A program made the translations under genes and the position numbers. The notes under the pieces were generated by a model that saw only the letters and a list, made by a program, of their open reading frames with translations, had not been told where the DNA came from and searched no databases. A stretch of 64,000 nucleotides of DNA from Candidatus Woesearchaeota archaeon (GTDB lineage Archaea; Nanobdellota; Nanobdellia; Woesearchaeales; BM511). Shown here piece by piece: positions 43,620 to 60,618 of the stretch; within the stretch, counting starts at the first letter, position 1, and every line of letters starts with the position of its first letter. The stretch is from NCBI GenBank assembly GCA_002867475.1, contig PKTL01000069.1, forward strand, positions 1 to 64,000, read 5' to 3'.

Positions 43620-43788
43620 GGACTTGTAGCTCAGCCTGGTATGAGCGCTCGGTTGGCATATGAAAAGTCAAGCTTTTCGAGTTTGGTTTGAAATCCGAAA
43701 ATCGAAAGGCCATGGGTTCACACTAAAATTCTTCTAGAATTTTGTGCACAAAAGAGCTTGACTTTTTTAGTGAATTCCACAGAGTCCA
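43620..43788 (+). tRNA. tRNA-like gene, anticodon GGC if canonical, with two putative introns (about 43659..43700 anticodon loop; about 43721..43772 T-loop)
   Basis: GGACTTGTAGCTCAGCCTGGTATGAGCGCTCGGTTGGCA...; D arm intact; removing both segments gives 75 nt with TTCAAAT T-loop and AGAGTCCA 3' end, but stem mismatches remain. Confidence 0.55.
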
Positions 43789-43824
43789 TAAAATATAAAA
43801 AGGATGTATTAATAAGGATTTATT

Positions 43825-50110: not shown

Positions 50111-50216
50111 TTGTAACTAACATCGCTGTTACATACCCCGAAACAAAGTTTATGATTGACTTTAGTCCAATCAATAAACGACTTGAGAGTGCAACGAGGT
50201 CGACTGAAGGGAGAAG
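50111..50216 (+). repeat. Structured inter-cassette element S1
   Basis: TTGTAACTAACATCGCTGTTACATACCCCGAAACAAAG[hairpin]CGACTTGAGAGTGCAACGAGGTCGA...GAGAAG. Confidence 0.75.
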
Positions 50217-50698
50217 TTTTAGAGCCCGAAAAAGAGTTAGTTTTTCAAAGTAGTGACAAACCGTAAGATTTATATTTAATTTAATCGTGCTTTTTATTAT
50301 GTCAAAAAATAACGAAAAAAATTTATCAACTATAATGTATCTTGCAGAACAACTTGGTATTAATCTTGATGATAAAAGAACTGCTATTGCTACACCTGAA
50401 GAAATGAGCACAGCAAGAATGTATGATGGTTCTTTAGAAGCTAGAGTAATTCCTAATTCTAGACCTGCTGTTGAAATTGAAACTCCAAGAGGTCCAGGAA
50501 TTTGGATAGAATTAGTTGACCACACTAGAGATTTAGCTCCAGAAGGAGCAATATATCAAATAAGAACTTACGTACCTAAAGAAGATCATAAAGAAGGTTT
50601 AACTGGAGATGTTTATTCTGTTTATGTTGGGAAAACTGGAATTATGCTTGATTTGCCAAAATAAGTTGATAATTCTGCATTGAAATAGGGCTCTAAAA
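50217..50698 (+). repeat. Cassette 1, bounded by TTTTAGAGCCC / GGGCTCTAAAA
   Basis: 11-bp perfect IR at 50217-50227 and 50688-50698. Confidence 0.8.
50287..50664 (+). CDS. Cassette 1 hypothetical protein (start may be ATG 50299)
   Basis: Intact ORF inside IR pair. Confidence 0.6.
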   Translation: MLFIMSKNNEKNLSTIMYLAEQLGINLDDKRTAIATPEEMSTARMYDGSLEARVIPNSRPAVEIETPRGPGIWIELVDHTRDLAPEGAIYQIRTYVPKEDHKEGLTGDVYSVYVGKTGIMLDLPK

Positions 50699-50811
50699 TT
50701 GTATGTAACATCGCTGTTAAATACTCCGAGTCCGAGTTTAACTTGAACTTTAGTTCTAAGATTAAACGAAACGAGAGCGCAACGGGACAAGGAGCGACTA
50801 GCGACGCAGAG
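50699..50811 (+). repeat. Structured inter-cassette element S2
   Basis: TTGTATGTAACATCGCTGTTAAATACTCCG...GTTTAACTTGAACTTTAGTTCTAAGATTAAAC...GCAGAG. Confidence 0.75.
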
Positions 50812-50878
50812 TAAATTAGAGTCTTATTCTTCAAAAGAGTGAAACGATGCATTGAAGCTAACTTAAAAGGGCAATTTT

Positions 50879-51181
50879 TTATTCAAATTTGATATTTTCA
50901 TATTTTTTAAGATGTTTAGAACTATGCTTATATACAACATCATGATGTTCATAATCAACAAAAAATACGGTTCCGTCATCTCCAAAAAATAAAATTACAT
51001 AAGAATTATTCACATGAACACGTTTAAATTTCTTTAAATCTTATGAAAGATTTTTATAATGATATAAATTATCTGAATTTAGAATTTCATCTCTTTTATT
51101 AAGAATATTTTGAAGCTCTTTTCCTTTAAGCTTCTTAAGAGCTTTCTTGAAAAGATTGCCATATTTTCTTTTTCTCATCAT
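50879..51181 (-). pseudogene. RelE/ParE-family toxin with one in-frame TAA (51041-51043)
   Basis: MMRKRKYGNLFKKALKKLKGKELQNILNKRDEILNSDNLYHYKNLS*DLKKFKRVHVNNSYVILFFGDDGTVFFVDYEHHDVVYKHSSKHLKKYENIKFE*. Confidence 0.75.
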
Positions 51182-51426
51182 AAATTAGCTCTATCTTTAA
51201 GTTCCTTTTCAAAGATATCAGCTTCTTCGTCTGATAAAAAAGAATTAGCATCTTTACTATTCAATCTTTCTAAATATTCTTCTCTTACTTTGAAATTATC
51301 AAAGATTTTTTCACGTGCAGCTTCACGCATGAATTCTTGAACATTCAAAAAACCATGATTTTTAGCATATTCTTTAGCTTGTTCTAAAAAATCTTCAGAT
51401 AATCTTAGATTTATTTGCGTAGTCAT
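51178..51426 (-). CDS. Antitoxin (RHH-like) of cassette 2 (ORF track start 51492)
   Basis: MTTQINLRLSEDFLEQAKEYAKNHGFLNVQEFMREAAREKIF; stop overlaps toxin start. Confidence 0.75.
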   Translation of the reverse strand: MTTQINLRLSEDFLEQAKEYAKNHGFLNVQEFMREAAREKIFDNFKVREEYLERLNSKDANSFLSDEEADIFEKELKDRANL

Positions 51427-51510
51427 AATATTATATGATATTACATAATATTTAAAACTATCGCTTAATCTTAAAAAATTGCCCATTTTCAAAAAAAAGA
51501 CTCTAATTTA

Positions 51511-51594
51511 TTGTATTTAACATCAGGATCGTTGTTAGTCAGTGAGTCTGCAAGACGAACGAAGGAGCGAATAGCGACTGACAGTATGACGCAG
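51511..51594 (+). repeat. Structured inter-cassette element S3 (shorter variant)
   Basis: TTGTATTTAACATCAGGATCGTTGTTAGTCAGT...GTCTGCAAGAC...ACTGAC...GACGCAG. Confidence 0.65.
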
Positions 51595-51641
51595 AGAGCC
51601 GAACGGGCTTAAACGTAAAATTTATATATGATTAAATAACA

Positions 51642-51659
51642 TTAAATAATATTATTTAA
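51642..51659 (+). promoter_or_regulatory. 18-bp perfect palindrome TTAAATAATATTATTTAA, probable antitoxin operator
   Basis: Directly upstream of the RBS of the cassette 3 antitoxin. Confidence 0.6.
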
Positions 51660-51668
51660 GGTGATAAA

Positions 51669-51896
51669 ATGAGTATAAAATCTTTTAACGTCGATGAAGA
51701 CACATATGGGAAATTTTCCTCTTATTGTAAAGAAAATGGGATAAGTATGAGTAAACAAGTGGAAACCTTCATGAAATCAATGATTGAAGAAGATCCACAA
51801 GTGAAACAAGAATACCTAGAAAAATTAGAAAGAATAAGAAAAGGAAAATTCGTAAAAGTAAACAACTTTGCTGAGAGATATGGATTAAAAGAATGA
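51669..51896 (+). CDS. Antitoxin of cassette 3
   Basis: Short RHH-like ORF with AAGGTGATAAAATG start, overlaps toxin start. Confidence 0.75.
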   Translation: MSIKSFNVDEDTYGKFSSYCKENGISMSKQVETFMKSMIEEDPQVKQEYLEKLERIRKGKFVKVNNFAERYGLKE

Positions 51897-52156
51897 GTTA
51901 TGAACTTGAAATCCATGAAGATTTAGATAGAACTTTTTCTAAACTTTCAAAGAAAAATAAGAAACAATTAGAAATAATCTTCAAAAAAGTTGATGAAATT
52001 CTAAAAAATCCATATCATTACAAACCTCTTCGTGGAGACATGAAAGGTTCAAGAAGAGTTCATATCGATAAACACTTCGTTCTAATATATGAAATTCTTA
52101 AAGAATCAAAAGTTGTTCGATTACTAGACTATAATCATCACGACAAAGTTTACTAG
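51893..52156 (+). CDS. RelE/ParE-family toxin of cassette 3
   Basis: YHYKPLRGDMKGSRRVHIDKHFVLIYEILKESKVVRLLDYNHHDKVY. Confidence 0.9.
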   Translation: MSYELEIHEDLDRTFSKLSKKNKKQLEIIFKKVDEILKNPYHYKPLRGDMKGSRRVHIDKHFVLIYEILKESKVVRLLDYNHHDKVY

Positions 52157-52165
52157 TTCGGCTCT

Positions 52166-52333
52166 TGAGTAATATTGTAACTAACATCGCTGTTAAATGA
52201 GGTTTTCTGATAAGAAAATCTGGAAGAGCGCCGAGCCGAGGCGCGAATCATTTAATCGCTGTTAGACGACCCGAACCATACAAAGTGAAGGTGAGAGCGC
52301 AGCGTGGCAAGAAAATCTATGATTTTCGCAGAG
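52166..52333 (+). repeat. Structured inter-cassette element S4
   Basis: TTGTAACTAACATCGC-tg-TTAAATGA[two hairpins]TCATTTAA-tcGCTGTTAGACGACCCG...GAAAATCTATGATTTTC-GCAGAG. Confidence 0.75.
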
Positions 52334-53221
52334 TTCTTTTGTTTGCCCGTACATAAATTTAAATAGTTACTTTGAATTAATAATTATAATGGTTTCACTT
52401 AATAAATATCTTAATATTCTTCAAAGAGGAATTGATAACTTTATTAGTTTTGAATCTAATTCAATTTTAGAGAAAAAACAATTCCAAGCTAATTTTAATA
52501 GTGATGAAATTGAAAAAATCATCGAAGTAATTGAAAATCAAATCAAAATCATAAAAAAAGCGATTAAGCATGCAGATTTTTATCGAATTCATCTTGAAGT
52601 TATGAATAATAAAGAACTTGTTGCATACATGGAAATTAACAAGAGAGTTCCATATTTTGAGTTCCGTTATAATCAAGTTTTTTCTCAACAAAAAAAAGTG
52701 ATGGAGAAAAGATTAAAAGAATTAAGTAAAGAACAATCTAAAGCAATCAGTTCATGGAATTCAATAATAGGAATCTTTAATATATTCTGCAACGAATCAT
52801 TACATTTACTAAAAAAACAAAGAAGATATTTAGAAAAATATGAAAAAAATCCTGCAAAATATACAAAGAAAAGTTTGGGAAATAAAATGAGGAAATTTCT
52901 TAAAAATGACTTTGAAGGATTATTAAAAATTGAGGAAAAATTATTTTTAACTGTTCTTTATTCAAGTAAAAAAGAATCAGAGAATTTGAGAGAATTTGGT
53001 AAGGAAATTGAAAAATTATTACATTTAGAGGAATTCAAAATGTATCCTCATATCCCTGGTTTAGTCCTAAACATTTTTCCTGAGGCAGGTTTATCAGATA
53101 TAGCATCTGCACCATTTCATGCAGCAGGATTTTTTCTTAGTATAATTCAAAGAACCAACAAATATTACAAAGAGTGGAACGAATTCATTAAAGATAATGC
53201 TTTAAAGAGCAAACAAAAGAA
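52334..53221 (+). repeat. Cassette 4, bounded by TTCTTTTGTTTGC / GCAAACAAAAGAA
   Basis: 13-bp perfect IR at 52334-52346 and 53209-53221. Confidence 0.8.
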
Positions 53222-53231
53222 TTTTGTCTAA
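52389..53231 (+). CDS. Cassette 4 hypothetical helical protein; stop codon lies in the conserved TAAC core of the next element
   Basis: Intact ORF ending ...AGC AAA CAA AAG AAT TTT GTC TAA|CATCG. Confidence 0.65.
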   Translation: MVSLNKYLNILQRGIDNFISFESNSILEKKQFQANFNSDEIEKIIEVIENQIKIIKKAIKHADFYRIHLEVMNNKELVAYMEINKRVPYFEFRYNQVFSQQKKVMEKRLKELSKEQSKAISSWNSIIGIFNIFCNESLHLLKKQRRYLEKYEKNPAKYTKKSLGNKMRKFLKNDFEGLLKIEEKLFLTVLYSSKKESENLREFGKEIEKLLHLEEFKMYPHIPGLVLNIFPEAGLSDIASAPFHAAGFFLSIIQRTNKYYKEWNEFIKDNALKSKQKNFV

Positions 53232-53406
53232 CATCGCGATTAAGAGAAGTTATTTTGCAAAAATAATTTGGATGAGGGCGCTGCAAGGCCCGAATCTCTT
53301 AATCGCTGTTACATACCCCGAAACAAAGCTTAACTTGTCGAAGACTAAGATTAAGCGACTTGAGAGTGCAACGAGGTCGAGAATTTATGAAATAAATTCG
53401 AAGAAG
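53222..53406 (+). repeat. Structured inter-cassette element S5
   Basis: TTTTGTCTAACATCGCGATTAAGAGA[two hairpins]TCTCTTAATCGCTGTTACATACCCCGAAACAAAG[GCTTAACTTGTCGAAGACTAAGATTAAGC]GACTTGAGAGTGCAACGAGGTCGA[GAATTTATGAAATAAATTC]GAAGAAG. Confidence 0.8.
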
Positions 53407-53424
53407 TTTTGTTTTTAGCGCCGT

Positions 53425-53679
53425 TTACAATTTCTTGTAAACCTTGCTTCGATGATCTGCATGAATGACATATATAATCAATTTATTATCTTCAATGTCA
53501 GCGATTACTCTGTAATCTCCAACTCTTAATTTATATTCAGAACGACTTGATAATTTTACAAAGTAATGATGAGGGTTTTCTTTTGTTTCTTGAAGCTTCT
53601 TAAAAATTCTTTGAGAAATGTCTTTAGGTAATTTTTCTAAATATGTTGATACTTTTTCATCGAAAACTAATTCATACAT
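53425..53679 (-). CDS. RelE-family toxin
   Basis: MYELVFDEKVSTYLEKLPKDISQRIFKKLQETKENPHHYFVKLSSRSEYKLRVGDYRVIADIEDNKLIIYVIHADHRSKVYKKL. Confidence 0.92.
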   Translation of the reverse strand: MYELVFDEKVSTYLEKLPKDISQRIFKKLQETKENPHHYFVKLSSRSEYKLRVGDYRVIADIEDNKLIIYVIHADHRSKVYKKL

Positions 53680-53680
53680 T

Positions 53681-53920
53681 TTACAATCCTAATCTTTTAG
53701 ACATTTCTGCTTCAGAAACTAAATTTCCTTGTTTGATACGTGCTCTTGCTGCTTCAATAGCTTCAATAGTTTCTTTACTAAGCTCAGGTTCATCTTTAAC
53801 ATGTTTTACAATATGAACTAGTTTAGTAATCACTTCATCATAACTTTCATTACGATATTCTCTAAATTTATCAAGTTCGGACTTTGTCCCGTCATGAATT
53901 TTAATAGTTGTCGCAGTCAT
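53681..53920 (-). CDS. RelB-like antitoxin
   Basis: Small ORF abutting RelE; IR AGTTTACT...AGTAAACT upstream (53936-53963). Confidence 0.8.
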   Translation of the reverse strand: MTATTIKIHDGTKSELDKFREYRNESYDEVITKLVHIVKHVKDEPELSKETIEAIEAARARIKQGNLVSEAEMSKRLGL

Positions 53921-54003
53921 TTTATATCACCTTTGAGTTTACTTCAGTATACCATAGTAAACTAAAGTATATAAATGTATGCTTTAAGGCGCTAAAAACA
54001 AAA

Positions 54004-54096
54004 TTGTATGTAACTTCGGGTTTTGACGAAGTTTTTCGTCAGAAAAATTTTGTTTAAACCCTGTTACGCGAACCGAAAGCCTTTTGCTGAGGGAAG
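54004..54096 (+). repeat. Structured inter-cassette element S6a
   Basis: TTGTATGTAACTTCGGGTTT-TGACGAAGTTTTTCGTCA-...AAACCCTGTTACGCGAACCG...GGGAAG. Confidence 0.65.
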
Positions 54097-54339
54097 TTTT
54101 TGCTCGTGCTAATCTTAGTCAGACATACAATAATATATTATTATACTATGTATAATATATTATGTATGGTCTAGACTATCAAGATTAGTAGCACAGGAGT
54201 CAAACCTCCTTAGCACACAAAAAGTCTTAGTTCGAGCTCCACAGGGCTTGAATTTCGTAAAAAACTTTTTACGATGACTATTTGCTTCTGAAATCGAAGC
54301 AGGCAAAAGCTATGCTGCTATTTTGTGCTAGAGCAAAAA
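54097..54339 (+). repeat. Apparently non-coding cassette, bounded by TTTTTGCTC / GAGCAAAAA, containing a long hairpin (54106-54194)
   Basis: 9-bp IR; no ORF in track; arms GTGCTAATCTTAGTCAGACATACAATAATATATTAT / ATAATATATTATGTATGGTCTAGACTATCAAGATTAGTAGCAC. Confidence 0.6.
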
Positions 54340-54501
54340 TTTTGCGTAACATCGCGATTAAGAGAAGTTATTTTGGAACAAAATAATTTGGATGGAAAAG
54401 TCTGCAAGACTTTGGAATCTCTTAATCGCTGTTAGTTTCTTCTGATAAGAACGAGGAATAACTGCAAGTGGTTTTTGACGAAGTCAAAAAATTCCGAAGA
54501 G
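54340..54501 (+). repeat. Structured inter-cassette element S6b
   Basis: TTTTGCGTAACATCGCGATTAAGAGA[TTATTTTGGAACAAAATAA][AAAGTCTGCAAGACTTT]TCTCTTAATCGCTGTTAG...TTTTTGACGAAGTCAAAAA...GAAGAG. Confidence 0.75.
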
Positions 54502-54999
54502 TAATTTTTAGCCCCCATTCAATATCTTTTAGTAATATAAAGAGTAGCTTTAAAATTATCAATATCTCCAGTTGAAAGAAATCTACTTTCTAAACTTGGA
54601 CCTAAGTATAAATTAGAAGTTTTATCAGCAGTAAAATTAGGCACTGGCATAATTCCTGCACACCCCATATACCCATCTTTTAGCTTTAATAATAAATCTT
54701 CTTCAGGTTCATCAAATTCAACCCCTGTTTGACTTAACATAAAATCAACTGGCGTAGAATAATTTTCTGCAAGTGAATATAATCCTCTTCCAACAATAAA
54801 AATTGGACCTGTCATCACGATATGTTGAGGATTAAAAGGCATATCCTCTCCAGACATCATTCTTTGTGAGATTTCATTTCTCATAGATTCAATTGCAGCT
54901 TCAACAAAACCCATATGAATTGCGTTATTATCTTTCATAAAAAGTGTAACTACTAAATAGTTTATATACTTTTCTTTTTTTAAAGGGGGCTAAAAATTA
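54502..54999 (-). repeat. Cassette 6, bounded by TAATTTTTAGCCCCC / GGGGGCTAAAAATTA
   Basis: 15-bp perfect IR at 54502-54516 and 54985-54999. Confidence 0.85.
54519..54938 (-). CDS. Cassette 6 hypothetical protein
   Basis: Intact ORF inside IR pair. Confidence 0.6.
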   Translation of the reverse strand: MKDNNAIHMGFVEAAIESMRNEISQRMMSGEDMPFNPQHIVMTGPIFIVGRGLYSLAENYSTPVDFMLSQTGVEFDEPEEDLLLKLKDGYMGCAGIMPVPNFTADKTSNLYLGPSLESRFLSTGDIDNFKATLYITKRY

Positions 55000-55167
55000 T
55001 TGTAACTAACATCGGAATTTAACGAAGTCGCCGAAGGCGATTTGGGAAAAATGCGAGCCGAGCATTTTTCCGTTAAATTCCTGTTAGCCGACCCGCAGCT
55101 ACGAGCGATGTTTTGAGCGGAGTGGCAAGGGCAAGGTTTAACTTGCTTGCAAGATTAAACCGCAGAG
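55000..55167 (+). repeat. Structured inter-cassette element S7
   Basis: TTGTAACTAACATCGGAATTTAACG[TCGCC-GAA-GGCGA][GAAAAATGC-GAGCCGA-GCATTTTTC]CGTTAAATTCCTGTTAGCCGACCCG...GGTTTAACTTGCTTGCAAGATTAAACC-GCAGAG. Confidence 0.8.
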
Positions 55168-55322
55168 TTTTCTTACTGCCGAGAACTAGATAGGTGCCGT
55201 AGTTTTAACTTACTTTAGAAAAATCCTATACATAACGAGTGAAACGAGACAAATTAGTTCGCTAGAACTGGGGGCGTTCTTAAAAAAAATATTTTATGTT
55301 TAATAATTCATGAATTATTTTA

Positions 55323-56783
55323 TTAACATTTAATTGTGAATTTAATATTTATTGTTGAAGGGATATCTATTTCTATAAAATCTGCTCGTAAAATTCCATT
55401 TTCTTCTATTCGAAATTGTGCATTAATTATATCATCATACTTATTTTGACCTAATTCAATACCACATTCTTTATCATCGCACCATGAAGTATCTCTTTGA
55501 ATATTTGTTGTGGTGTTTAAAGCATTTAATTCCATAAAACATTTTGATAAATTGTATTTATTTTCTTCCAATCTATATATGTATTCCCTATAATGTCCTA
55601 CTGAATAATTTAATTTATTATTAATATAAATGCTTACTTTACAAGTATTATTTTCACAAGTTGTTAAATCATCATATTCATATCTTTTATTTCTATCTTC
55701 TTTAACAAAACCTTTAAGGATTAATTTTGAAATATTTTGATCTTTAATTTTAAATTTATTAAATTTTAATAGAATCATACCTTTATTTTCATTTAGCAAA
55801 ATTTTTTCAAATCCGAATCTATCGAAAGAATCTTTTAAATTATTGTTTGAAATATCATAAAACCCATCAATTATTTTATTATTTTTATCTGTTAATAATT
55901 CAAATTTATCATCATGATCCGCACTAGTATCTATATTATATTTTCCATAATTTATAGGTATTAGAGGTATAGTACTTGTCATTAATCCAAAATTATTTTT
56001 GATTTTAATGGGGACTTCAATATTTCTATAAATATATTCACTATTGCCATGGTCAATATAATAATTTACTAATTTTTCATCACCATATGAAAAAAATGGA
56101 ATAGATATTATTGTTGATATTATACCTAATAAAATTATAATAGGAATTGCATAAATAATAAATTTTTTAGTATTAAAATTTTTTGCTAATTTTTCATTTT
56201 TATCCTTTTTTAGAAATTCCTTGATTGATTTATCAAAATTATTAAATATTGATTTGAAATAAACATTATAAATAATAAAACAAATCATCAAAAGCATTAA
56301 AAAGAGTATAAATAATATGATTCCCTCAGCCAAAAATTCATGTAAATAAGGAATTAATGCAATAATAATAATATTTTTGATGAGAATTATTAGAAAAAAT
56401 AATTGGATAAATAATAAAGATATAAACCAATTTCCTAAATCTTTTTTTGAACATTTATGTTTGTTACGATAAATTATAAAAAAAATAAAAATAAAACCTA
56501 TTCCTGCAAAAATAATCCCTAATTGTGTGATTTCCCAAGACTTAGAAATGTCAAAATCTAAATTAAACCTATTGCTAAAATAAGTTCCTAAAAAGAAAGT
56601 AAATAAAGCAGTTATAAATAAAAAAAGCCAAATAACTATTAAATCAATTACAGAATTAGAATTATTCAATTTGAATTTTCCTTTATTTTGGAATTTTGAC
56701 CATAGTAAAAAAGTTAATAATATTGAAACTACTAAATACCCAGGCATATTAACCAAAAGATCAAATAGATTTTCCCAACCCAT
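55323..56783 (-). CDS. Cassette 7 multi-TM membrane protein
   Basis: Intact 486 aa hydrophobic ORF. Confidence 0.65.
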   Translation of the reverse strand: MGWENLFDLLVNMPGYLVVSILLTFLLWSKFQNKGKFKLNNSNSVIDLIVIWLFLFITALFTFFLGTYFSNRFNLDFDISKSWEITQLGIIFAGIGFIFIFFIIYRNKHKCSKKDLGNWFISLLFIQLFFLIILIKNIIIIALIPYLHEFLAEGIILFILFLMLLMICFIIYNVYFKSIFNNFDKSIKEFLKKDKNEKLAKNFNTKKFIIYAIPIIILLGIISTIISIPFFSYGDEKLVNYYIDHGNSEYIYRNIEVPIKIKNNFGLMTSTIPLIPINYGKYNIDTSADHDDKFELLTDKNNKIIDGFYDISNNNLKDSFDRFGFEKILLNENKGMILLKFNKFKIKDQNISKLILKGFVKEDRNKRYEYDDLTTCENNTCKVSIYINNKLNYSVGHYREYIYRLEENKYNLSKCFMELNALNTTTNIQRDTSWCDDKECGIELGQNKYDDIINAQFRIEENGILRADFIEIDIPSTINIKFTIKC

Positions 56784-56920
56784 AAAATTATTTATTAAAT
56801 CTTTTATTTAAAAAGCTTTCTTGTGAGTTTGCAAAGATTGGGATAAATTTCTCAATTATTTATCCCAAGACAGCGTTTAAAAAAGAAAGAGTTATATAAT
56901 TAAATAATAAATTGAAATAG

Positions 56921-57586
56921 ATGTCAGAAAAATTAACAGGTTCAGAAATTGAAAAAAAAGTATATGAACACATTATAAAAAGTGTTGGTATGGGTTATAC
57001 TACTGACTTTAATCCTTTAAATTTATCTACAGAAGGGATTGCTGATTGTCTTGGTTTATCAATGGAAGAAGTTGAAGAAGCAATCAACAAACTAAAAGGT
57101 GAAGGTGAATCAACCAATATTGAGAGAATAGAATCTGTGAAACCTAAATTTGAAATTTGGTTACCTAAAACTAAAAAAGGTAAAGAAGTTTTAGATGAAT
57201 TATGTAATTCAGGCGTTGCTATTAAAGGTTCAATGCAATGGTTTTACACTTTTTTACTTTTGGCAGCTTCATATATTTTCACATTTGAAAAACCATACTT
57301 AGCAAATGTGTTAGAATTAAAATCATTTAATGAGTATTTTGTATGGGCTGTTATTTTTACAGGGATTTCATCATACTTTGGAAGTTATTTGGCTCATAAA
57401 TGGCATCAAATAAATTATGAAATGGAAAGAATAAAAGGCGGCAAATATTACATTTATGCATTTATATTATTGATTTCAGGAATAATATATAGTTGGATGA
57501 AAGAAATAGATGTTGCACTTATCATTACAAGTGTAGGAACAATAGCAAATTTGGTATTAGTAATATATCAAATCATAAAAAAATAA
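56921..57586 (+). CDS. Cassette 7 wHTH-like + TM protein
   Basis: LSTEGIADCLGLSMEEVEEAINKLKGEGE then four hydrophobic segments. Confidence 0.6.
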   Translation: MSEKLTGSEIEKKVYEHIIKSVGMGYTTDFNPLNLSTEGIADCLGLSMEEVEEAINKLKGEGESTNIERIESVKPKFEIWLPKTKKGKEVLDELCNSGVAIKGSMQWFYTFLLLAASYIFTFEKPYLANVLELKSFNEYFVWAVIFTGISSYFGSYLAHKWHQINYEMERIKGGKYYIYAFILLISGIIYSWMKEIDVALIITSVGTIANLVLVIYQIIKK

Positions 57587-57587
57587 A

Positions 57588-58298
57588 ATGGCAAAGAAAA
57601 AATCATATGAAGAAGGGAGTATTGCAGATTTTGCAGCTCAGGGATTAAAAAATATTAAGAAATTATCAGGAAGTTCTTTAATGAGTGAAAAATTAGTTGG
57701 TTTAAGCACATTTTTATTTTCATTGGTATTTACCTTTAGTTTCGGTAAATGGTTAATACAACCCGAACAGTTATATGAAATAAGTTCAGTAGTTATTTTA
57801 ATTTTAGGATTAATGATTGGTCTAGGATTATCTTCAGGTTATTCATTTATATTGTTAGCAATTTCAGACTTTGCAAAAGATAAAATTCAAAGTTTAAGAT
57901 TAGGAATTGTTTTCTTATTTATTTCAATTCCTTTGTCAATAGCGGGATTAGCATTAAATTCAAACTTTTTCATAGCTTCTAGTTGGATATTAATTGTTGT
58001 TCAACTTGCATTAATCTTGTTAAGTTTCTTTTTTAGCTTTTCATCTCAGAGCATTCCAGATATTAAAGTAAATGCTTCAGGTATATGGAAATCTATAGGT
58101 AGAGCTGGGTCAATTGCAAGTATATTAGGTTTAGTATTGGCTGTTTTAGTAATACTCGCACCACAATATTTCGGACAAACATTATACCAATGTATTGATG
58201 GAACTGTTCAAAAAAGTTTAGAAGCATGTCCAAATATAAAAGAATATTTAGTCACATTTGCTAAAGAACAAGGATATAATTTAACTAATATTAACTAA
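57588..58298 (+). CDS. Cassette 7 multi-TM protein
   Basis: Hydrophobic ORF abutting the previous gene. Confidence 0.6.
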   Translation: MAKKKSYEEGSIADFAAQGLKNIKKLSGSSLMSEKLVGLSTFLFSLVFTFSFGKWLIQPEQLYEISSVVILILGLMIGLGLSSGYSFILLAISDFAKDKIQSLRLGIVFLFISIPLSIAGLALNSNFFIASSWILIVVQLALILLSFFFSFSSQSIPDIKVNASGIWKSIGRAGSIASILGLVLAVLVILAPQYFGQTLYQCIDGTVQKSLEACPNIKEYLVTFAKEQGYNLTNIN

Positions 58299-58325
58299 AT
58301 TAAAAAATATGGGGAAAAAATAAAA

Positions 58326-58631
58326 ATGGAAAATAAAGAAATATTTATTCAAGCTATAAATGAAAAAAAGAAAGTGAAAGTGAAAATCAATACTGATGAA
58401 AAAGGAATTATTATAAGAGATTGTATTCCTTTTGATTTCGGAACTGGTAAATTGCCAGGAATCAGATATCATTTTCTCGATTTAACTAGTCCTGATGGAC
58501 CTCACAATTTATCTGTTTTACCTAATAAATTATTAGAAATTGAAATTTTAGATGAAACATTTAATCCTGCTGATTACATTAAATGGAAACCTAATTGGAA
58601 ATTAGCAAGAGATTGGGGAGAATTTTCTTAG
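58326..58631 (+). CDS. Cassette 7 small protein
   Basis: Intact 101 aa ORF. Confidence 0.55.
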   Translation: MENKEIFIQAINEKKKVKVKINTDEKGIIIRDCIPFDFGTGKLPGIRYHFLDLTSPDGPHNLSVLPNKLLEIEILDETFNPADYIKWKPNWKLARDWGEFS

Positions 58632-58873
58632 ATTTTAAGAACGCCCCTTTTTATTTTCTTTTTTTTCTAAAGTAAGTTAAAATTTGGGTGGAGTGCGAGG
58701 TTTTCTCGTGCGTAACCGTTAAACATTTGTTAGATACAATCTTTCCAATGTATATTATACGAAGTTTTTTCTAAGCCTTCTCCTCTATGAGAAGAGCTTT
58801 CCCTTTTAACGAAGGCACCTACCTTTTTAGATTCCCGGGCACGTTTTGTCGTCTACAAAAGGCAGTAAGAAAA

Positions 58874-58940
58874 TTTTGGCTAACATCTTTTAGGTGAATT
58901 TTTATGAGAATAAAAGATGTCTTTTATTTTTAAGTTAAAA
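58874..58940 (+). repeat. Terminal structured element S8 (truncated or divergent)
   Basis: TTTTGGCTAACATCTTTTA...TAAAAGATGT. Confidence 0.55.
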
Positions 58941-58977: not shown

Positions 58978-59178
58978 TTATTTGTCTTTAGCGTGGCTGA
59001 GAAGCTCTTCATGGAGAAGCTCAAGCTTTTCAATTGTTCTTATGTGCATGTCTTTCATGACTGCGAACTGATATTTTTTACTATTGTCTTTTTTTAGTAG
59101 CCAGTTCAACTTATTTGATAATCCTATTATTAGATCTTCATATTGTGTTAAGAGTTCGATTGCTTGTTTTTTATTCAT
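58978..59178 (-). CDS. Small hypothetical protein
   Basis: 66 aa ORF with GAGGTGATATAAA RBS context. Confidence 0.5.
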   Translation of the reverse strand: MNKKQAIELLTQYEDLIIGLSNKLNWLLKKDNSKKYQFAVMKDMHIRTIEKLELLHEELLSHAKDK

Positions 59179-59374: not shown

Positions 59375-59614
59375 ATGAGTGGCTATAAATTGAATATGAC
59401 AAAATACACGGCATTTATACAAAAAGATGAAGATATGTATGTTGCTACATGTGTAGAACTTGGCACGGTTAGTCAAGGATACACGGTTGAAGAAGCATTA
59501 GATAATCTAAAAGAAGCAACCGAACTTTACCTTGAAGAAATGCCAGGAGAAGAAGTTTCTGATTATTCTTTTACTACCACTTTTGAAGTTGGTGGTAAAA
59601 GTGTTAAAGCTTAA
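59375..59614 (+). CDS. hicB: HicB-family antitoxin
   Basis: KYTAFIQKDEDMYVATCVELGTVSQGYTVEEALDNLKEATELYLEE. Confidence 0.9.
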   Translation: MSGYKLNMTKYTAFIQKDEDMYVATCVELGTVSQGYTVEEALDNLKEATELYLEEMPGEEVSDYSFTTTFEVGGKSVKA

Positions 59615-59831
59615 AAAAATTTCTGGAAAAAACTGTGTTAAACTAATTTGTAATAAGTTCAGTTTTAAATATGTTAGGCAATCTGGAAGTCATATAATTC
59701 TTAAAAAAATAAGTGGAGATACCACAATTACTTGTGTTGTTCCTAATCATTCTGAAATTAAAATTAACACTCTGAAAGGATTATTAAAACAAGCAAAAAT
59801 TAGACAAGAGGATTTTATAAAATATCAATAG
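59601..59831 (+). CDS. hicA: HicA-family toxin (likely GTG start; ORF track start 59532)
   Basis: LKKISGKNCVKLICNKFSFKYVRQSGSHIILKK...VVPNHSEIKINTLKGLLKQAKI. Confidence 0.9.
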   Translation: MLKLKKISGKNCVKLICNKFSFKYVRQSGSHIILKKISGDTTITCVVPNHSEIKINTLKGLLKQAKIRQEDFIKYQ

Positions 59832-59841
59832 AGGTGATAAA

Positions 59842-60618
59842 ATGAATGTGTCAAAAATAATATTTGATAAATTGTTTATTCAAGGTTGTAGTATGAAAAC
59901 CATAACTGCTTATGAATTGCAGCTAGAAAAGTTTCTTGAGTGGGTTGATAAGCCTCCATTAAAAGTCAAACAAAAAGATATTGAAGAGTATACCAAATAT
60001 CTAAGAAGAAATGATTATGCCCATTCAAGTATTAGGCTTTCCCTTAATGCTATCAAATATTATTTTGTGAAAATAATGAAGAGAAGGTTTGAGATTTCCA
60101 TGCCTAAAAAACATGAGAAACACACAGGCGTTTGTGATAGAAATGAGATTGTTGAAGCAATTGATAATTTAAGAAATCCAAAGCACAAATTACTTCTTGC
60201 ATTGCTATATGGTTCTGGTGTTCGTGTTAGTGAAGCTGTAAAGATTAGGCATGATGATATTTTTGATGATTATGCAGTTATCAGGCAAGGTAAAGGAAGT
60301 AAAGATAGAAAGATAATAGTTTCTGATATTTTTCTAGAATTATATGAACCTTTTAAAAAAAGAAAAGGTTTTGTTTTTAATGGTAGAAATTCTCATTTGA
60401 CTGTTAGAAGTGTTCAAGAGATAGTTAAAAAAGCGTTTAAGGATAGACATGTTCATCCTCATATGTTAAGAGCAAGTTTTGCAACGCACCTTTACGAGTC
60501 AAGTGTTGATAAGCATAAGATCCAAAGATTACTTGGTCATAAGGATGTGAGAACTGTTGAAGTTTATACTAAGTATTCAAAGTTCGATCCAGAAGTTAAA
60601 AGCCCTTTAGATATTTAA
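59842..60618 (+). CDS. XerA/XerC-D-like tyrosine recombinase
   Basis: GSGVRVSEAVKIRHDDI, GKGSKDRKI, HPHMLRASFATHL, LLGHKDVRTVEVYTKYSKF; C-term VKSPLDI. Confidence 0.93.
   Translation: MNVSKIIFDKLFIQGCSMKTITAYELQLEKFLEWVDKPPLKVKQKDIEEYTKYLRRNDYAHSSIRLSLNAIKYYFVKIMKRRFEISMPKKHEKHTGVCDRNEIVEAIDNLRNPKHKLLLALLYGSGVRVSEAVKIRHDDIFDDYAVIRQGKGSKDRKIIVSDIFLELYEPFKKRKGFVFNGRNSHLTVRSVQEIVKKAFKDRHVHPHMLRASFATHLYESSVDKHKIQRLLGHKDVRTVEVYTKYSKFDPEVKSPLDI
60603..60618 (+). repeat. 16-bp direct repeat CCCTTTAGATATTTAA, copy 1 (3' end of recombinase gene)
   Basis: Identical to 61337-61352. Confidence 0.85.

Follow-up and report, generated by a model that had tools for sequence, protein, structure and literature searches.

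Nested inverted repeats as the probable paired ends of a gene cassette in an integron-like array of a Woesearchaeota archaeon

Bacterial chromosomal integrons (IntI/attC systems such as VchIntIA with VCR) combine tandem gene cassettes, an attI site beside a divergent tyrosine-recombinase gene, foldable attC sites of the order R''-L''-L'-R', a G|TT crossover, cassette-specific R'/R'' cores and cassettes with toxin-antitoxin (TA) genes. Extrahelical bases on the R''-L'' arm of bacterial attC are bound by IntI and required for attC x attC recombination (PMC2727003), and they are held to have co-evolved with I2, the IntI-specific additional domain, a relation termed a chicken-and-egg problem (PMC4792948). 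Archaeal attC arrays as such are already known: the part of Ghaly et al. 2022 (PMC9668308) on which we draw describes them in archaeal metagenome-assembled genomes, including Nanoarchaeota, with 539 attC sites against 6 IntIs, most arrays thus being without an integrase. The IntIs in that part of the report carry the IntI-specific domain, and extended cassette-specific ends are not mentioned there. We analyzed a 64,000-nt stretch (the window) of a Candidatus Woesearchaeota archaeon (contig PKTL01000069.1, forward strand), in which four nested inverted-repeat pairs enclose a set of genes. TFB, EF-2 and Orc1/Cdc6 among the translated genes, together with the small size of the genome, suggest a DPANN archaeon. 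Our analysis indicates that these repeats are probably the two ends of one gene cassette in an archaeal integron-like system with a XerA-like recombinase.

The locus shares with bacterial integrons all the features of the opening list and departs from them in three respects: its recombinase has no I2 insert, its attC sites have no extrahelical bases in the L stem but a 2-3 nt bulge beside the crossover, and pairing between its cassette ends spans multiple blocks and can reach tens of bp, where 9-11 consecutive nt are reported for bacteria (PMC2727003), a figure that does not come from the same test. The array (50121-58883) consists of eight cassettes, of which the eighth, adjoining an attI-like site, contains the nested repeats. 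This eighth cassette is read on the minus strand, starting with TTAGCC at 58883 and ending in its attC. The main elements are as follows.

55010..58883, minus strand: the cassette from crossover to crossover (3,874 bp), with G|TTA at both boundaries and R'/R'' matching as TTAGCC/GGCTAA
58878..58883, minus strand: R' core TTAGCC, which pairs with R'' at 55084-55089; the same rule applies in the other cassettes
55010..55089, minus strand: attC of the cassette, with R'' GGCTAACA, an 11-bp L stem (GGAATTTAACG/CGTTAAATTCC), a branched loop, a GA bulge and the TG| crossover
50121..55009, minus strand: seven other cassettes, with boundaries at 50708/09, 51520/21, 52184/85, 53231/32, 54013/14 and 54349/50; attC sites S1-S8
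58881..58919, minus strand: attI, TAA|CATCTTTTA-N18-TAAAAGATG, the insertion point adjoining the recombinase
59842..60618, plus strand: integron-type tyrosine recombinase, XerA-like, with no I2 insert and transcribed away from the array

The unit was delimited from a short motif, TAACATC on the plus strand, which bounds the nested repeats on the outside at either end and recurs at 50118, 50706, 51518, 52182, 53229, 54011 (where the copy reads TAACTTC), 54347, 55007 and 58881. On the minus strand, full sites take the form nnnnnTAACA-G...(stem-loop)...C-GA-TG|TTAnnnnnAAT, with the n5TAA that ends each cassette reverse-complementary to the TTAn5 at its own start. Since this complementarity is the R'/R'' rule of integron cassettes, the unit is the cassette 55010-58883. 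Its R' and R'' recombination cores, TTAGCC (58883-58878, minus strand) and GGCTAA (55089-55084, minus strand), form a fifth and outermost pair that the original prediction, made from the sequence alone, had overlooked.

The four inner pairs named in that prediction are all present, perfect and in strictly nested order, with 57 paired bases.

55168-55180 / 58861-58873: block 1, outermost of the four, TTTTCTTACTGCC / GGCAGTAAGAAAA; the start-side arm is GGCAGTAAGAAAA, 10 nt from the crossover, and the end-side arm is TTTTCTTACTGCC
55191-55198 / 58814-58821: block 2, TAGGTGCC / GGCACCTA
55203-55223 / 58662-58682: block 3, TTTTAACTTACTTTAGAAAAA and its complement, 21 bp, 100%
55271-55285 / 58633-58647: block 4, GGGGCGTTCTTAAAA / TTTTAAGAACGCCCC

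When the left and right flanks are chained collinearly, the best result consists of precisely these four blocks (57 nt). Dinucleotide-shuffled flanks gave a mean of 10.6 (sd 6.7, maximum 35), and none of 600 shuffles reached 57. The flanks had also been taken for one long imperfect inverted repeat; they are instead discrete perfect blocks separated by spacers whose lengths are unequal between the two sides. These four pairs are blocks 1-4 of the cassette's own matching ends.

The same organization was found in other cassettes. The first 60 nt of 87 cassettes were compared with the end of their own and of all other cassettes. The 8-nt R'/R'' cores at the G|TT crossover are complementary in a cassette-specific manner in most of them, and a perfectly complementary stretch of 10 nt or more joins the own ends in 61 of the 87, whereas swapped ends share one in 3.9% of cases (2.8% when swapped within one locus). 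Longer ends were then analyzed in 83 cassettes, among them the short-site cassettes of the window, by collinear chains of blocks of at least 8 nt. The median nested chain was 39 nt for own ends versus 9 nt for swapped ends, four blocks being typical, and the own-end chain exceeded the 99th percentile of swapped ends in 56 of 83. The R core, at offset 0, counts as block 0. Block 1 is mostly 13-14 nt long; it starts 10 nt past the crossover in 53 of the 83 cassettes and lies on the other side at a median of 65 nt before R''; further blocks are found near offsets 30-45 and beyond. A circle-type junction (cassette start joined to its own attC) folds at a mean of -39.3 kcal/mol versus -29.7 kcal/mol with the array neighbor, and is lower in energy in 73 of 79 cassettes (P 3e-14). 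The counts of 87, 83 and 79 cassettes differ through different length filters. The cassette ends are thus complementary to each other, and their base pairs are specific to each cassette.

These comparisons bear on two explanations offered in the original prediction. Cassettes of this array and of arrays from other genera each possess nested self-complementary ends of their own, set at constant distances from a G|TTA crossover and accompanied by attC, attI and recombinase, which speaks against both a cassette inserted within a cassette and a fold-back transposon-like carrier. Its broader proposal, a mobile-type cassette with paired flanks within an array, holds. It had further suggested looking for the flanks with other cargo: the same flank architecture carries different genes in many genomes. 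The outcome that the prediction had named as its refutation, flanks confined to this locus and genes conserved as core, was thus not observed: the architecture is widespread and the cargo genes are non-core.

Folding of the window sites yields attC-like hairpins. The window holds five full and three short attC sites, with at least two foldable R''-L''-L'-R' sites less than 4 kb apart. A model (R1) built from five window sites also picked up sites next to homologous recombinases in two other genera (loci L046 and L047), always on the strand demanded by integron polarity. Across 11 sites from three genera, the stem comprises 17 bp with 96% of cells paired and two-sided changes in 10 of the 17 pairs, whereas shifted-alignment controls gave 33-44% paired and at most two pairs with two-sided changes. 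The attC at 55010-55089 scores 89.1 bits with R1 and 82.3 bits with a second model, R2. With R2, 102 of 244 genomes of the order had matches at E<=0.001, as did 29 genomes from other orders of the class when a sample of the whole phylum was searched. The genome studied here has a single strong array.

Extrahelical bases were looked for in the L stem of 123 sites by direct comparison of the two arms, and none were found as a feature of these stems: the L stem is 12 bp and uninterrupted, with a median of 12 paired positions and at least 9 of 12 pairs in 104 of the 123 sites. The attC arms do differ in length, by 2 or 3 nt, and the extra nucleotides are located on the R' side, between L' and the crossover. 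The arm comparison replaced a fold-based judgement that returned "other fold" for 57 of 129 sites, probably owing to a strict boundary rule.

A few observations on attC sites stand apart. In S1 and S2 (50118-50131 and 50706-50719), far from attI, attC has shrunk to TAACAGCGATGTTA (minus strand), the exact remainder expected after deletion between the two GCGAT copies that flank the L hairpin, as though the hairpin had been lost when single-stranded DNA slipped; in this way, the oldest cassettes may have become locked. Outside the window, on another contig, the genome has one weak attC-like match (G000:C27:33919-34009, locus L066; R1 E 0.03), which could be a lone or decayed site. A GC-rich tail of ~40-70 nt with recurring motifs such as CCACGCTGCGCTCTC lies between block 1 and R'' at 55090-55167 and at the ends of other cassettes, and near-identical GC-rich tails occur behind unrelated genes in different families. 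A candidate inner cassette at 58702-58735 (GTAACCGTTAAACATTTGTTAG, attC-like by eye) was dropped, having neither a model match nor a cassette-specific partner.

The attI consensus TTCRYCTAATAGRTG|TTAnnnnnAAT was found upstream of the recombinase in 11 loci. All 18 loci with both recombinase and attC, the window included, show canonical polarity, the recombinase being divergent from the array and attC lying on the canonical strand. A tyrosine recombinase therefore stands beside the array, divergent from it and with attI in between, and this layout and polarity are those of an integron.

Archaeal XerA resolves chromosome dimers at dif, and the window recombinase resembles it, aligning end to end with XerA 4a8e (another XerA structure is 5hxy). 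It matches Pfam Phage_integrase (6.9e-30) as well as NCBIfam XerA_Arch (2e-50) and integron integrase (2.6e-38), the latter two short of their curated cut-offs. I2 was sought with TIGR02249 and by alignment with IntI4 (2a3v), and was found by neither: the recombinase skips positions 169-241 of TIGR02249, and residues 180-246 of IntI4 have no counterpart in it. The K-to-H spacing is 56-67 residues in all array-linked recombinases with both motifs recognized, versus ~107 in IntI4. The absence of I2 from the recombinase and that of extrahelical bases from attC fit each other. Despite its similarity to XerA, the window enzyme does not fit a housekeeping XerA/dif system, as an array is present. In the tree, seven recombinases whose fetched stretches contain no array group together in a separate clade (support 97), as expected for housekeeping XerA, while the array-linked recombinases, that of the window among them, fall outside this XerA-type clade of the same order. 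Genomes G030 and G039 carry both kinds. The array-linked recombinases thus have the appearance of dedicated integrases that lack I2.

By layout and sites, the system is integron-like. It is not classed as a plain member, because I2 and extrahelical bases, usually counted as defining, were both sought and neither was found. A parallel is the integration of CTXphi by XerCD, where a Xer-type enzyme without I2 acts on a single-strand site that is folded but has no extrahelical bases (PMC4792948); there, however, a phage uses the host Xer, with no cassette array, dedicated integrase or attI platform. A widespread natural array with folded attC sites and neither defining feature would be either the missing intermediate or a solution reached independently. 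Archaeal attC arrays that seem to be without an integrase, as the ratio of 6 IntIs to 539 attC sites in the cited part of PMC9668308 suggests, also gain a dedicated one here, and the paired ends are a cassette-encoded structure outside what present attC models look for. The array, common in this archaeal class, may show how integrons can work, or began, without the IntI-specific domain.

We propose that the recombinase at 59842-60618 probably joins cassettes at G|TTA, using attI (58881-58919) as double-stranded DNA and attC folded from one strand. That this enzyme acts on these attC sites, that it does so on single strands and that the outer blocks have a role in recombination are what we infer. 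In a circle or a single strand, the cassette ends would pair block by block, from the 8-nt R core through the 13-14 bp box to further blocks, lengthening the attC stem far past that of bacterial integrons. Compared with its state in the array, the site would then be much more stable once the cassette is a free circle, and insertion would be favored; in single-stranded DNA, the paired ends would draw the cassette into a loop, so that its two crossover points meet and excision can follow. A more tentative idea, plausible but one to which we would not commit, is that the integron system arose from or was retained with an archaeal XerA-like recombinase that has no I2, its attC sites having no extrahelical bases and the multi-block ends taking over strand-choice folding and one-way drive.

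Several traces are consistent with mobility. At most 3 nt separate the predicted crossover from the ends of contigs of genomes G001 and G034 (at attI) and of one contig of G030 (at attC), and contig ends of loci L081 (both ends), L102, L110 and L117 lie within ~10 nt of one; as a trace of heterogeneous cassettes, such ends are only suggestive. Tail modules of ~70-140 nt recur at 85-97% identity in cassettes from different families whose genes are unrelated, and an array of another family contains a homologue (59% over 96 aa) of the ParE-type toxin encoded at 53425-53920. Other points weigh against the reading of the repeats as ends of an integron-like cassette served by the linked recombinase. 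Contig ends at crossovers can equally stem from the attC repeats rather than from live recombination, and neither a recombination product nor a cassette circle was seen. About one third of the cassettes are without the outer box under the strict exact-match test, and the analyzed loci are the best model matches, which tilts the sample to canonical sites. Another enzyme could act on the attC sites, given a recombinase without I2 and sites without extrahelical bases, because bacterial IntI needs these bases for attC x attC recombination (PMC2727003).

Among the alternatives, the one that survives best also accepts an integron cassette but assigns the outer blocks to RNA or transcription, as paired transcript ends, terminators or insulation of neighboring cassettes. 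In the cassette 55010-58883, the inner blocks do adjoin the two outward-facing gene ends, and a T-rich stretch comes after the block-4 arm at 58633-58647. However, the 10-nt offset from the crossover is fixed in most cassettes independently of gene direction, blocks are also present in one-gene cassettes, and they run on directly from the R'/R'' cores, so that we regard this role as unlikely. Also improbable is an ordinary IntI with I2 that works on the array in trans, the adjacent recombinase being a housekeeping XerA placed there by chance. The resemblance of the window recombinase to XerA would suit this explanation, as would the archaeal IntIs known from the cited part of PMC9668308, which carry the IntI domain; yet polarity is canonical at 18 of 18 loci, the attI motif is attached to the recombinase, housekeeping-type XerA forms a separate clade with both types present in G030 and G039, and no integrase above the TIGR02249 cut-off was found in the genome studied here, which is 95% complete. 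Slightly less probable still is a functionless scar of cassette making, left by fold-back copying of one end. This would explain why the ends match each other and those of no other cassette, but decay should leave scattered mismatches and equal spacing, whereas we observed perfect blocks of fixed offset and length between unrelated, unequal spacers, and in related cassettes (the S5-S6 unit of the window and its G173 homologue) the boxes have diverged, yet those of each cassette still match one another. A fold-back or MITE-like transposon with long terminal inverted repeats inserted in the array would account for genes flanked by nested perfect inverted repeats, but is hardly credible, as the repeat sequence is different in each cassette and matches only within it, the boundaries are G|TTA in attC/attI and not target duplications (for which no separate search was made), and the same architecture occurs in array cassettes across the order with no transposase.

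Under the preferred reading as a cassette, the genes enclosed by the repeats are its cargo, and the four open reading frames are as originally described.

55323..56783, minus strand: 486-aa multi-transmembrane (TM) protein, in the same direction as the cassette
56921..57586, plus strand: 221-aa protein with an N-terminal helix-turn-helix (HTH)-like segment (sub-threshold) followed by TM segments
57588..58298, plus strand: 236-aa multi-TM protein
58326..58631, plus strand: 101-aa soluble protein

These genes are accessory. The 101-aa and 221-aa proteins were each found in one of 240 genomes of the order, their own, and the 236-aa protein in five of 240 (its own and four others). In the four other genomes, no attC was detectable near the 236-aa homologues on the fetched stretches, so these do not demonstrate that the cassette 55010-58883 has moved. 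A defence or addiction role had been suggested for the cassette but gained no support: searches of the four proteins against PADLOC, PHROG, NCBIfam and Pfam gave no significant family match (the 221-aa protein reached 0.0057 with MCM_WH_arc, below the cut-off), and with no PADLOC match among them the cargo does not qualify as a known anti-phage defence system. Structure prediction of the 101-aa protein without homologues gave a pLDDT of 33. TA genes reside in other cassettes of the same array, two of which carry ParE-type TA pairs.

51669-52156 and 53425-53920: ParE-type toxin cassette genes (Pfam 4.7e-8 and 1.1e-9), with a small antitoxin-like gene beside each

Two further features lie between attI and the recombinase.

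58978..59178, minus strand: 66-aa helical protein, 68% identical in G001
59375-59831: HicB-like/HicA pair (HicA 1.8e-13), flanked by the 66-aa gene and the recombinase gene

Small open reading frames like that of the 66-aa protein are present in L046, L047 and L049 (genomes G036, G003 and G018) and absent from most other arrays; the protein could be an accessory factor of the recombinase. The HicB-like/HicA pair was not seen at this position in the relatives examined. An Rfam search of 49-60 kb gave no match. Elsewhere in the window, 43622-43790 resembles a tRNA gene with a long intron (GGACTTGTAGCTCAGCCTGG...), although ARAGORN did not report it. Within the array, the 336-bp cassette at 54014-54349 has no convincing gene and contains a long AT-rich palindrome at ~54110-54190.

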